Below, piece after piece: positions 6,901 to 12,900 of a stretch of DNA of 64,000 bases (the stretch's first letter is position 1; every line of letters begins with the position of its first letter). A model generated the notes under the pieces. It saw only the letters and a list, made by a program, of their open reading frames with translations, did no database searches and had not been told where the DNA came from. Made by a program: the position numbers and the translations under genes. This stretch comes from Leptasterias polaris (lineage: Eukaryota; Echinodermata; Asteroidea; Forcipulatida; Asteriidae), in contig JAZGTN010000235.1 in NCBI GenBank assembly GCA_037783415.1, positions 151,501 to 215,500 of the forward strand. Direction: 5' to 3'.

Positions 6901-9900
6901 ATGTAGACTGCAGTAGGAAATGGAGGTATTTCATAGTTCAAAATAATAGCTTCAAGGTTGAACAACTAAAATTGCGATAATGTGTATACAGAATAGGTGT
7001 TTAAAATGTTGCTAACTTACGGAGAGATGGTGATGGTCGTTTGGGATTCCTGCATTATATGCTTGAGGGAGCTACCACCTTTGCCAATCAGACGACCAAC
7101 CAGTGCATTATGAGCCAATAGCTTGAGTGGCGGTTGGGTTCTAAAGAGAGACAGATCAAAGTTTATCATAAACAGTTTACTACAAGATAATTTACCTTTT
7201 GCTTCAACAAATGGTCACATAAAACCCTCCTACATTGTTTATAACATATTAAATAATTGTTTCTATTAGTTTTCTGTATTGGTTTGAGGTTTAAAAGTCT
7301 TTATAACTCAGCTATCTTCACTTTCTTTATTATCCCCTTGCTGACAGCACTACAGTGATGCCAACACCAAGTATATGAATTCCTCTATGTCCATCTATTT
7401 TAAATTTTGTGAAATCTGAAAGAAGACAATTTTGAACCTACGACCTCCCCAACTTACATGCCGATTGCTCTACCAACTGAGCTATCTTGCCCTATGTTGA
7501 CAATCTGCCTATCTCTTTTTGAAGGGGGGGGGGGGAGTCAGAAGTCATACAAGCCAGGAATTATACCCATGTTACATAAAGCTTGGAAAGCAGCAGTAAG
7601 TGGATCACCGTAAGGACACACAAATATACCTGTTGATTTATTTCTTTCGACATAACCTTACCCCTTCTGGGAACACTCCTGGTTCATAATTTCCATGACC
7701 TTCTTGCAGGCAGAAGTACAATCTTCTGGATTTCCAAATGTTGTCACAGCCTTTTTGTTAAAATGAGAAGATAAGGAACATATTGAAACAAACGCTTGAA
7801 TTAAAACCATCAACAAAAGAAACCTAATTAATAACTTTTTTATGTTTTCTTTCCAAAAACAAAATAACTATATGAATTATAAGAATAAGAACAATTACTC
7901 ATCTTTTCTTGTCATATGTTTTGTATCCATTAGCTTAATATGGTTTTTTTTTAAATAGTGTTGTGGACGTGTGAATTTTCACACCAGGAGTCAGTACAAA
8001 AGGTTGCGGCTGACCAATTTTCATTTAATTTTCTAATATAATGTCACCCAAGGATTCTTTTTTTTACATTTCTGAACCCAGCAGTCTTGGAATTCCAGAC
8101 ATAAGGAATGAGAAACAAAGTTTCAGCTTCCTCCCATAGGTATAAATATGAAAATACTTAGTATAAAATTAATTTGCAATGGCAGGGGACCTTTGTAACC
8201 TAGTTTATGTCTCATTGTATACAGCGGAGGGTTCCAAACTGGGCTAGTTATAAATACTGGTTCTCACACATCTATACTTGTTCCAATACTGTTATAAGAT
8301 ATTAGATGCAATACGAACAGTACAATAGTTGAGGTATTCCATTTATATACAATGTACCTCAATTTAAGGACAGACACCACATACAGGAAGTGTTTTAATT
8401 AATGTATACCCTGGAACTGTTTTCTCACTTTTACCTTCTCTCCTGACCCTGGGTTTTCACGGCGGTGGATGTCAATTCTGTAGAAAAATAGACACAAAGT
8501 GGTTTGTTTACTGCACATGTATTTGAATTTAAGAATTACTGGGACAACAGTTTTAAAAAGTGCTTTAAAAATGATTCGGATCTGAACTCGGCAACAAATA
8601 TTCTACATTTTAGTAATCCATGGGTATCTGTTCTATTTATAGACAATGACACAAGAGGGAAGGGGCTACATCCTTAGATATACCATGGGTATACCAAGTG
8701 CATAATGATTGAAGGAAGGGAAAAGGGACAGTGGGTAATTTGTGACAAAGAAGGGATCTGCTCATAATGTGTTATTTGACTGAAGGATACTTGGCCTCAT
8801 GTAGGGAAAGTTCACAATTCACTAATTCATATAACATTCTTGTTCTTGGTGTTCATCTCAAAAGCTCCTAACATGAAGTTTGCTCAGAAGAGTTTTGCTG
8901 CAAGATTTTTGTAAAGTCTGCCCGATTACTGTGAGTGTTGATTATTTGATTATCGTTTAGAACTCTGGTAAAAGTTTAAGTCAGATTAAACAGGAATGAT
9001 ACTTGGTTTTGGGAAAAAAGTGGGGAAATTTTACTGAGTACAAGGGCTAACATACATGTACGTACGTATGGGGTTCGTTTTGATAGAATTTTCAGGCTAT
9101 TTAATCATTTTTTCTGATTTTTTCCCACCAGCAAAAAACCCACTCAAGAAATCAGAGTAAAATAAGGAAGAGTATCATGCTTTTTAAAACAAATGCTAGC
9201 TGTATGTCTTTGATGATAGAACCCCTTACAGGAAACTTCAGTTGTTCCTCTTAAAGATTTTGTTAATCATAGATGACTCAAGACAGTGTGATCCTGTGTA
9301 ACAACTAACACAGAAGGACTAGAATACATCGCCTGTTTCTATAGCACTGTAGTGTTTCAACAGCATTTCTACTTACATTACAAGCTCTCAAGAACCAAAA
9401 CATAGTTGAAATGTATGTCTCAGTACTTCGTCTCATACTGTCACTAAGTAAACACAGTACAAGATAGCGGCACTGAATAATTAATATTCGCAGTGGGAAC
9501 GCCAACCTCACAACTGAAAATGCGAGTTTGGAGCTGGCCTTGGCCAGACCTGCGGTTGCTTCACGATACTAAAAATCTCATCTTAATTACTAGGTTAATA
9601 AAATTACAAATATTGAAAATTACAAATATTGATAGGAATGAGTGTAACAAAGTAAAAAACATCAAGGAATAGTTTACCACGAACTAAAAGTAGTTTACAA
9701 TTATTGTTCTTGTTTTTTGTTTACTGTTTATCTATTTATTAACAAGAGGTAAAAAATGTAAATAATATGGTCATAATTGGGTGACTTTTCCTAGACACAA
9801 GAAGCAATAAGGACTGCAGTGTTCTTACCTCGCTTTAGTCTCTCCAGTGATCTGCTTGATGGTCTTACCACCTTTTCCAATGATGGCACCAACCACATCA

Positions 9901-12900
9901 CTTGGAACTAGCATTCTACAAGAGGAAAATATAAAGGATAACATTTGAGAAGAGCTTTTACTTAAAATAGAGTTCTCTGCAAGAATTTGACCTCCTAAAA
10001 TTCTCTAGCAATCCGGGCCCAGTTTCATAGAGCTGTTGAAGCAGAAAATATTTGTTAAAATAGTTCTGCTAAGCAAAAATGTAAGCAGGATAAGTCACAG
10101 ATGGTACACTTGAAATGGTATTTTAGCTGGTAACCTTATTCTGGTAAGCATTTATTTTGAAGTGATTAGCTGCTTAAGCAGCTCTTTAAAATTAGGCTCT
10201 GTTACTAGACAATTTTTAAGACAAAGGTCCAAACAAGACCATGAGACATGTTGCTCATTGAAGCTATACAAATGGTACAGTCACAACAGAGGACATTTAT
10301 ATTTTAGTTTTTTAATAACTCAATGTTTTACACTCTTATCCTAACTTTGCAACAGCGGCTGATAAGTTTAATGAAAAAAACTGCTTCCTACATTCATTTG
10401 TCTCAGTACTTTGTCTTACACCATCACTAAGCAACACAGTACAAGATAGCGGCACTGAATAATTAATATTCGCAGTGGGAACGCCAACCTCACAACTGAA
10501 AATGTGAACTTGGAGCTGGCCTTGGCCAGACCTGCGAATGCTTCTGTCCATATAAAATAACAGCAGACATCACCAGTTATAGGCAATACAAATATTTGTA
10601 GGTAGCCTCCTTATTAGTTGATTTGAACACTTGTCTAGATAAAATATGCTTTACTGATTACATCCGAATTGCCAAATAAATACATATAACCTTTAAACAA
10701 CTCAGGGGAGAAAAAGATGTGTATGTCTGACCACAGGTTGTAGTGGGAGGGAGAACGTGGAAAAATCACTTGGGTTTTATTTTTAGTGTTTCACTTCGTC
10801 TTAGAATCAAAGGCTCACATGAGAGACCAAGTTCTGCTATTGCTTATATAATGTATTTATCAAGTTCTTGTGTATGTCTTCAATGGTACTCATTAAATCT
10901 ATCCTGTGCGACACCTACTCTAAGCAAACACAGTGGACATTCTTAAGATCATGAAAGACGCCTACATATTATACTCAATACAAATGTCAAAGCCAATCTT
11001 AGATAACCCATTAGATATAGTCTCTAATGTTTATCTGTGCCAATTGTGTGGGTGGCTATTCGTTGGTGGGTGTTATTTTTTAATTTTGTTTTGATCATAT
11101 TAACTGTACATGGTAAATACAGTGGCATTAATGTTTTTTACAATTCAAAAATTGAAGAGAGAAAAGGAGAAAATAAAAATTCTTAAAAGTTAATTATAAT
11201 AAACAAAAATTTAAGATTTGACTTTTAAATAGTTTTGTATTTTATGTTACCTCACTGGGAATACATTGGAGCTTCCTTGATTGCGGTTGCCACCACGGTT
11301 GAATCTGTTGTTTTGGCGATTCCCTGAATTTTTGTAATTGACCTGAAGAAAAAATTTCATAAGAAATGTCCATCTAGTAATCCAGCTTCAGGGTTACAAA
11401 CACTTTGAAAAGTCTTCCGTGTATTCAGTCACAAACATGTGTACAGTACTACACCCGAAATCGTTATTCTTGAATCTCTGCTTCATTTCATCAATTAAAT
11501 TTGGAATAAATCCTAGAAATATTGTGTATTACAACAGTGCTAATACTACATAGAATCCTATGCCATGGTTAGGTGAGAAGCTGTGAAAATGACAATTTAG
11601 AGATGGTGTTGTTTACCTTGAGCTCTGAACTATGGAATTCATAGTTGTTAAGTTGCTTTATGGCTTGCTGAGCTTGCTCTACAGCTGCATAGGTTGCATT
11701 GACAGCATAGCCATTGGCACCCTCTCTGCCTACAAGAATTACATACAAACAAATTACACAAACAACCAAAGGCTTACTTTATACAACAAACTCGCTCAGA
11801 TTATAGAGGCTGATGATCAGTTTTAAATGAGATGAACAAAACAGTTTCTTAGATACCTTTTTCACAGGAGCTTACACTGCCAAAAGTCTTGAGCAGATCC
11901 TGCACTTCCTGGAGTGGTGTTTCCAGTGGAATGTTATGCACCTGGATGTTGGTGGATCGGCTTCTGAAACACAAGTCAAATTATACTAATTTAAAGAGTC
12001 AAATATGTGTCTGACTTTTTATTGTGTCAGTTATCATATGAAGGATTGATTGCATTACAGACTGCCCAAGATAAAGAAGCTGCTATATACAACCAACAGT
12101 AACAGTAACAGTAACAAATCTGTGCTTATAAAATAGTCCTTTTGAAAGTGTATTTCACACTCCACATTCAATATATTTGTCTTAGCACTTCGTCTCATAC
12201 CGTCACTAAGCAACACAGTACAAGATAGCGGCACTAATAATTAATATTCGCAGTGGGAACGCCAACCTCACAACTGAGAATGTGAGTTTGGAGCTGGCCT
12301 TGGCCAGACCTGCGAGTGTTAATAAAAGAGAACAGATGGTAGGCTTCTTCATATTGATAATTGGTAATATGAGGACCTCCACACAAAGTTCATGGGAACT
12401 GATAAAATTAAAAAACTAGAGAGAACATGAAAGGTTGATTTTAAAAATAATTGTCTTCATAATAACTGTTCAAAGAATTTGCTACACTAATAATTATCAC
12501 ACATGTACAGGTTCATGTTGAAAAAAAACTGAGATTGTTCTATAAAAACTTTTGCCCACATCCAAGCCATCAAAACAACCCATTCTTCAAGTGAAGAATT
12601 TCCCTAGCAACACACAACGGTTTAAGGGGATCAACCTTACAGAATATCCTTTAAAATTGTCAGATTTAGAGTGACTGATTAAAGAACAATCTTGACATAA
12701 TACAACATTTGAAATTCATGCGCAAAAGACGCAAGTTGCAGATTTTCAATTTGAATGTTTTTTCACCCACAAGAAGAGAAGGCTTGATAAGGAACTCATG
12801 TGACTCATTAGCAGAGAAATAATTGGATGAAGACTTCATTATAACAAGGTTAAAGACTGACACATGAAACCATTATTATTTCAATAACTGATGCACACAA

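Follow-up and report, generated by a model that had tools for sequence, protein, structure and literature searches.

Candidate box H/ACA guide RNAs of the E3/SNORA63 type in three introns of a sea star IGF2BP gene

The sea star Leptasterias polaris carries three copies of a short sequence with the outward form of a small nucleolar RNA (snoRNA) in three introns of one gene, which raises the question of what these copies are and which residues they might guide. The gene encodes an IGF2BP protein and lies within a 64,000-nucleotide (nt) stretch of assembly GCA_037783415.1 (contig JAZGTN010000235.1, positions 151,501 to 215,500 of the forward strand). We refer to this whole stretch as the window and give all coordinates within it. 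A preliminary description, made from the letters of the window, proposed a local same-strand family of intronic H/ACA-type RNAs, and the folds, pairing and copy number reported here support that proposal. More specifically, our computational comparisons indicate that each unit likely encodes a box H/ACA guide RNA that resembles E3/SNORA63 in type and is processed from its intron. The sea star example, the IGF2BP host and the presence of three copies are new here; the target sites themselves are known, one being matched strongly and the other weakly.

The three units were found exactly where the preliminary description had placed them (Table 1), and they are 142-145 nt long when read on the minus strand. 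They differ from each other by 9-11 substitutions and 1 or 2 indels per 142 columns, and transitions account for 28 of the 30 substitutions in these pairwise comparisons. All three show the order hairpin, H box AUAUUA (ANANNA type), hairpin and ACA, the ACA standing 3 nt from the inferred 3' end, and the predicted fold of each consists of the two hairpins that the earlier account had noted, joined by a hinge and followed by a tail. Its call for a stable fold was also answered: minus-strand z scores against dinucleotide shuffles were -3.47, -3.02 and -2.65 for units 1, 2 and 3 (shuffles folding equally well: 1/200, 0/200 and 1/200), versus -0.73, -1.66 and +0.06 on the plus strand (52/200, 12/200 and 101/200). 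Better-than-shuffle folding is confined to the minus strand, which is the strand of the host gene.

The substitutions between units do preserve pairing, as had been claimed. In an alignment made by hand, with the structure likewise drawn by hand from the predicted fold (39 base pairs in each of three copies), 116 of the 117 pair cells hold standard pairs. Nine of the 39 pairs vary, and eight of these are standard in every copy; the sole non-standard cell is a C-A at the outermost pair of the 5' hairpin of unit 1. Pair substitutions are mainly one-sided and run via G-U, and the single two-sided change (C-G to U-A in unit 3) hinges on a hand-placed 1-nt gap that a MAFFT alignment places differently. 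With n = 3 sequences, the covariation is modest. The 5'-pocket guide strands are identical letter for letter in all three copies, as is the small hairpin that holds the left strand, and the 3' pocket differs in unit 2 alone (G to A). The idea that the guide pockets might be diverging across the family was not borne out beyond that change.

Scanning the pockets against the genome's own ribosomal RNA (rRNA) revealed a specific match for the 5' hairpin. The rRNA set consisted of five pieces of 18S, 5.8S and 28S with a total length of 5,809 nt, leaving out 28S about model positions 1888-2412 as well as the small nuclear RNAs (snRNAs). The 28S had been located via a conserved string and was identified with Rfam, and a second string provided more ribosomal DNA (rDNA). 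In all three units, the 5' pocket forms 7+6 uninterrupted Watson-Crick pairs with 28S GGGAACG-U-G-AGCUGG, with exactly two target nucleotides between the two duplexes. It scores 13 at this single U, and the runner-up site in the 5,809 nt scores 7.0. Shuffled 5' pockets reached 13 in 0/5000 trials when scanned against the 28S 3' piece (the best of them scoring 12), in 1/1500 trials on the whole rRNA set and in 1/200,000 trials at the target site itself. In addition, the distance from the start of the right guide strand to the H box is 14 nt in every unit, and the usual spacing between target U and box in H/ACA guides is 14-16 nt. This site had been proposed as the target ahead of the scan, which then ranked it top.

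If the target U is aligned with yeast 2944, the sea star's own 28S has the expected base at each of the 14 positions that the published list of yeast 25S modifications (PMC8307265) gives between 2815 and 2975, one of the 14 (2944) fitting by construction. Judged by this positional comparison, the target U is the equivalent of yeast 25S Ψ2944, the site described for snR37 in yeast and for ACA10 in human (PMC2780460, PMC2653536). The pocket-to-rRNA matching that the preliminary description had suggested as a check is strong for the 5' pocket at this known 28S site and weak for the 3' pocket, which points to the E3/SNORA63 site.

The identity of the host gene rests on several searches. Same-strand exons encode RRM and KH domains (Pfam), and human IGF2BP1, used as a query, aligns exon by exon with tblastn. 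In a search of solved structures, IGF2BP3 ranked top, and IGF2BP proteins other than Nova filled six of the first eight rows (7/8 in all). The protein stitched from the exons (518 amino acids) is 90% identical to the IGF2BP of Asterias amurensis and 73% identical to that of Patiria miniata, which places the source of the window close to Asterias. The exon map bears out the statement that the units sit in three different introns on the host-gene strand (Table 1).

A DNA search of the whole genome with the unit (630 Mb, 334 contigs) gave three matches, all inside the IGF2BP gene; counts from this search are lower bounds for repeats, yet only three candidates arose, and much diverged copies elsewhere in the genome lie outside its reach. 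At that level of similarity the count argues against a short interspersed element (SINE), for which the preliminary description had anticipated hundreds of copies. The covariance search it had proposed, run with a model of the three units, uncovered no further unit in the window; the model's two other matches there (E 1.1 and 4.8) overlap or adjoin unit 3 and are on the opposite strand. Neither this search nor the genome DNA search found a unit copy in the two introns that separate units 2 and 3. A stretch at ~10862-10990 on the minus strand has ACTGTGTTTGCTTAG and GACATACA in common with the units' 3' half and was considered as a decayed fourth copy. It was rejected: 31/300 shuffles aligned equally well, and higher scores (47 versus 39) occur elsewhere in the window (348 control chunks).

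The similarity between units ends at their boundaries, and their 250-nt flanks show no clear homology (in the lowest of six comparisons, 10/200 shuffles were as good), which would suit a SINE or a retroposed snoRNA-derived element rather than functional guide genes. We nevertheless hold this origin to be highly improbable, since the copies number three in 630 Mb and stay within one gene, no A-tail is visible in the flanks inspected around the units, no word of at least 6 nt that might represent a target-site duplication is common to the 30 nt preceding a unit and the 40 nt following it, and pairing is preserved with invariant 5' guide strands. It is also unlikely that one expressed guide gene is accompanied by two non-functional, decayed duplicates. 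The weaker 3' pocket of unit 2 and the loss of the outermost 5'-hairpin pair in unit 1 (C-A) fit such decay, yet the boxes, the folds and the full 5' guide are present in all three units, with one non-standard cell in 117. The paralogs look like products of duplications inside one gene, by a mode of which the flanks keep no trace. Intragenic (cis) snoRNA duplications of vertebrates likewise leave paralogs in separate introns of one host gene. Chicken snoRNA paralogs are described as almost all intragenic, and ~90% of chicken H/ACA RNAs as single (PMC2653536); among human H/ACA families a single shared host is reported to be rarer, 7.3% keeping all expressed members in one host (PMC8178906).

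The second pocket offers a weaker, possible link between the units and E3/SNORA63. In units 1 and 3, the 3' pocket (left CGCUAU, right ACG) can form 6+3 pairs with GCGU-U-CAUAGCG in the own 28S, at a U that lies 101 nt upstream of the 5'-pocket target (positions 442 and 543 of the 28S piece) and corresponds to the E3 site; unit 2 forms 6+2 pairs there and is weaker because ACA replaces ACG in its 3' pocket. When one stem pair is opened, units 1 and 3 find no better site than this one in the scanned rRNA (score 9, next 5.0), and shuffled 3' pockets are as good at this site in 11/200,000 trials for these units and in 23/200,000 for unit 2. SNORA63 has been assigned to human Ψ4390 (PMC9941101). 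In a plausible register, the Rfam consensus of SNORA63 pairs 10+4 at the E3 site through its 3' half, tied with a spurious site (13.5 each), and on the own 28S 3' piece the consensus reaches 5+7 pairs at the 5' site (score 12), again with one spurious site equal. Below threshold, the snoRNA model of Rfam that units 1 and 3 match best is SNORA63 (RF00092), with both hairpins in order.

The closest counterpart is found in the chicken, where GGgACA30 from intron 8 of EIF4A2 is called the cognate of human E3 (PMC2653536). That report predicts 28S-3976 as the target of its 5' hairpin (4+7; the snR37 and SNORA82/ACA10 site), 28S-3875 as that of its 3' hairpin (4+5; the E3 site) and 28S-1612 as a third. 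The first two are 101 nt apart, exactly as in the sea star, and the units share with chicken E3 a 5' hairpin predicted for the snR37/ACA10 site, which is stronger in the sea star (7+6 in all three units vs 4+7). E3/SNORA63 is an intron-hosted H/ACA RNA of ~130 nt whose 3' hairpin serves the E3 site (human 28S Ψ4390), and the units resemble it in their H/ACA form and intronic location. Both SNORA63 and SNORA63B are carried by introns of human EIF4A2, whereas the host of the sea star units is IGF2BP; the host gene is not a strict criterion for a snoRNA family. The units further differ from E3 in being present as three copies in non-adjacent introns, in the small extra hairpin holding the left guide strand, in a 3' guide that is short on its right arm and in scores below the Rfam threshold. 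Their predicted 5' target uridine (yeast 25S 2944) is common to snR37 in yeast, ACA10 and SNORA82 in vertebrates and Nc ACA15 in Neurospora. snR37 is 386 nt long (PMC8994135) vs 142-145 nt for the units, and the Neurospora guide is reported to use its H-side hairpin as well (PMC2780460). Two matching sites from matching hairpins provide good circumstantial evidence of E3 homology, limited by the weak 3' match, and the units probably work like E3/SNORA63 and are probably its homologs.

Several observations weigh against the E3 assignment and the proposed guiding. SNORA63 scores 24.8 bits for unit 1 and 21.4 bits for unit 3 relative to a gathering score of 90, with E-values of 0.42 and 2.2 (0.022 when unit 1 is searched alone). 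For unit 2, SNORA63 is absent from the matches at E up to 10, and the only one listed is a partly overlapping SNORA55 match (18.6 bits vs a threshold of 45). Taken alone, the 3'-pocket match of units 1 and 3 is not significant, since 124/1500 shuffled pockets equal it at some place in the rRNA set; 69/5000 equal it when the 28S 3' piece is scanned. The match requires one upper-stem pair to be opened, the spacing from pocket to ACA is 13 nt in units 1 and 3, and the 3-bp arm contributes ~0 kcal/mol. When 80 registers were slid along the 28S 3' piece, one that would need an open lower stem outscored the E3 site (10 vs 9) and did so at a different U. Closed-stem registers reach at most 6.5 (units 1 and 3) and 7.0 (unit 2), at an 18S site, and none of them matches the E3 site. 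For the yeast equivalent of the E3-site U, the published list gives m3U2843 rather than a pseudouridine (PMC8307265). As for the 5' pocket, folding predictions for free unit 3 have five of the six left-guide nucleotides paired (probability 0.84-1.0), and freeing both guide strands of this unit would cost ~9.2 kcal/mol vs -8.4 and -10.4 from the rRNA duplexes.

The Rfam searches can be read alongside these points. No Rfam snoRNA family reaches its gathering score for any unit; nine sub-threshold matches are listed at E up to 10, those not discussed above being taken as chance, and the SNORA10 and SNORA82 models are not among them. A search of the own genome with the SNORA63 model gave 0 matches at E up to 10 (51 of 30,135 first-look candidates scored), a null that is uninformative because the three units themselves went unrecovered. 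Since the Rfam threshold is not reached, we firmly file the units as box H/ACA only and do not claim membership of SNORA63.

These data leave some room for an independently derived H/ACA guide that came to serve the snR37/ACA10 site by convergence, with a 3' hairpin that has another target or none and a likeness to E3 that is due to chance. The SNORA63 scores far under threshold, the different host (EIF4A2 in chicken), the frequency of equally good shuffled 3' pockets over all rRNA together with the higher-scoring register, the ties of the SNORA63 consensus with spurious sites in both halves and the limits of the rRNA scan given above all suit this view. On the other side, both pockets match the two predicted sites of chicken E3, from corresponding hairpins and 101 nt apart, and the 3' score at the E3 site is reached by few shuffles at that position (11/200,000). 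We consider convergence rather doubtful and homology with E3 the preferred reading.

The sequence of the units, their predicted fold, copy number and host and their complementarity to the own rRNA are supported directly, and from them we infer how transcription, processing, protein binding and catalysis might proceed. Trimming of a spliced IGF2BP intron would release an RNA of ~143 nt, which would bind dyskerin (NAP57/Cbf5), NHP2, NOP10 and GAR1. As long as the RNA is free, the small hairpin (CUGGCCAAGGCCAG) would enclose the left guide strand of the 5' pocket, and it would have to open on the target. Once it is open, the 5' pocket would pair with its 28S site through CCAGCU on the left and CGUUCCC on the right, putting the U2944 equivalent in the active site for pseudouridylation. 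The 3' pocket of units 1 and 3 may likewise serve the E3 site if one pair of its upper stem opens.

The locus bears on the chicken E3 question, namely whether birds acquired the extra 5' guide or humans lost it. The chicken study words it both ways, referring to novel guiding functions of GGgACA30 and to a loss in human E3, which is said there to lack a 5' guide for the snR37/ACA10 site (PMC2653536). A perfect sea star 5' guide at the same site favors human loss over bird gain, if the units are homologs of E3. This suggests that the chicken double guide is the old state and that human E3 lost the 5' function, although it comes from one lineage whose orthology is unproven. We tentatively postulate, as a scenario that is possible but short of probable, that the E3 RNA in the common ancestor of deuterostomes guided two uridines of 28S, both in the peptidyl-transferase region and separated by 101 nt. 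Such a double guide would have been kept by sea stars (perfect 5' guide, three IGF2BP-hosted copies), weakened in chicken and deprived of its 5' guide in human; a hairpin over the guide strand that opens only on the right rRNA might also gate loading.

One, perhaps two, predicted modifications would fall in the catalytic core of the ribosome. The snR37 site is of interest because yeast snR37 is present in the earliest pre-60S particle, where its guiding role is called predicted, without experimental evidence (PMC8994135). The curated Rfam thresholds miss a well-formed sea star H/ACA candidate, and pairing with the own rRNA names its likely target. Among the matches listed in a search of the titles and abstract openings of open-licence literature, none describes an H/ACA RNA in an IGF2BP intron.

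Table 1. Coordinates of the IGF2BP gene and of the intronic H/ACA units in the window
Feature	Position	Strand	Evidence or remark
IGF2BP host gene coding sequence	3954..18977	-	tblastn, Pfam, PDB; two small exons by comparison
RRM1	18777-18977 and 17104-17220	-	IGF2BP exons
RRM2	11858-11965 and 11611-11703	-	IGF2BP exons
KH1	9828-9917, 8432-8479 and 7673-7756	-	IGF2BP exons
KH2	7023-7130 and 6715-6927	-	IGF2BP exons
KH3/KH4 pieces	within 4201-5522	-	IGF2BP exons
IGF2BP C-terminus	to 3954	-	comparison with Asterias protein
IGF2BP exons checked by comparison	11251-11342 and 17104-17220	-	agree with Asterias protein
H/ACA unit 1	9413..9556	-	intron downstream of KH1 exon match, bounded by tblastn matches 9828-9917 and 8432-8479
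H/ACA unit 2	10396..10540	-	intron bounded by exon 11251-11342 and match 9828-9917; 3' pocket ACA not ACG
H/ACA unit 3	12175..12316	-	intron upstream of RRM2 exon match, bounded by 17104-17220 and 11858-11965
H box AUAUUA	unit 1 9482..9487; unit 2 10464-10469; unit 3 12242-12247	-	
5'-pocket right guide strand CGUUCCC	unit 1 9495..9501; unit 2 10477-10483; unit 3 12255-12261	-	
5'-pocket left guide strand CCAGCU	unit 1 9532..9537; unit 2 10514-10519; unit 3 12292-12297	-	

Some further features were observed in the rDNA and elsewhere in the window. Outside complete rDNA, 28S pieces occur as a 101-nt Rfam match on contig C29 and as a 3' part on contig C170, with no 18S match in those loci, and the loci of contig C117 hold full 18S and 5.8S with 28S matches that end early. 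Such scattered or shortened 28S pieces may be assembly gaps, insertions or stray copies.

Three mutually related, transfer RNA (tRNA)-like stretches lie at 26995-27066 (minus strand), 20601-20696 (plus) and 23948-24032 (plus). Rfam gives the first a tRNA match of 37 bits, ARAGORN calls no tRNA in the window, these stretches included, and they are probably a tRNA-derived SINE of this sea star. An inverted repeat (49530-49828 and 49914-50212) has 299-nt arms that are 96% complementary and 85 nt apart, in keeping with a foldback element or hairpin. There are also two tandem arrays, one of 35 bp x 21.5 at 30087-30840 and the other of 84 bp x 19.3 at 36010-37628, with a 42-bp half-period. The 84-bp array is flanked by a 100% identical direct repeat of at least 300 nt (35471-35770 and 38543-38842), the two copies of which are possibly the terminal repeats of an inserted element.

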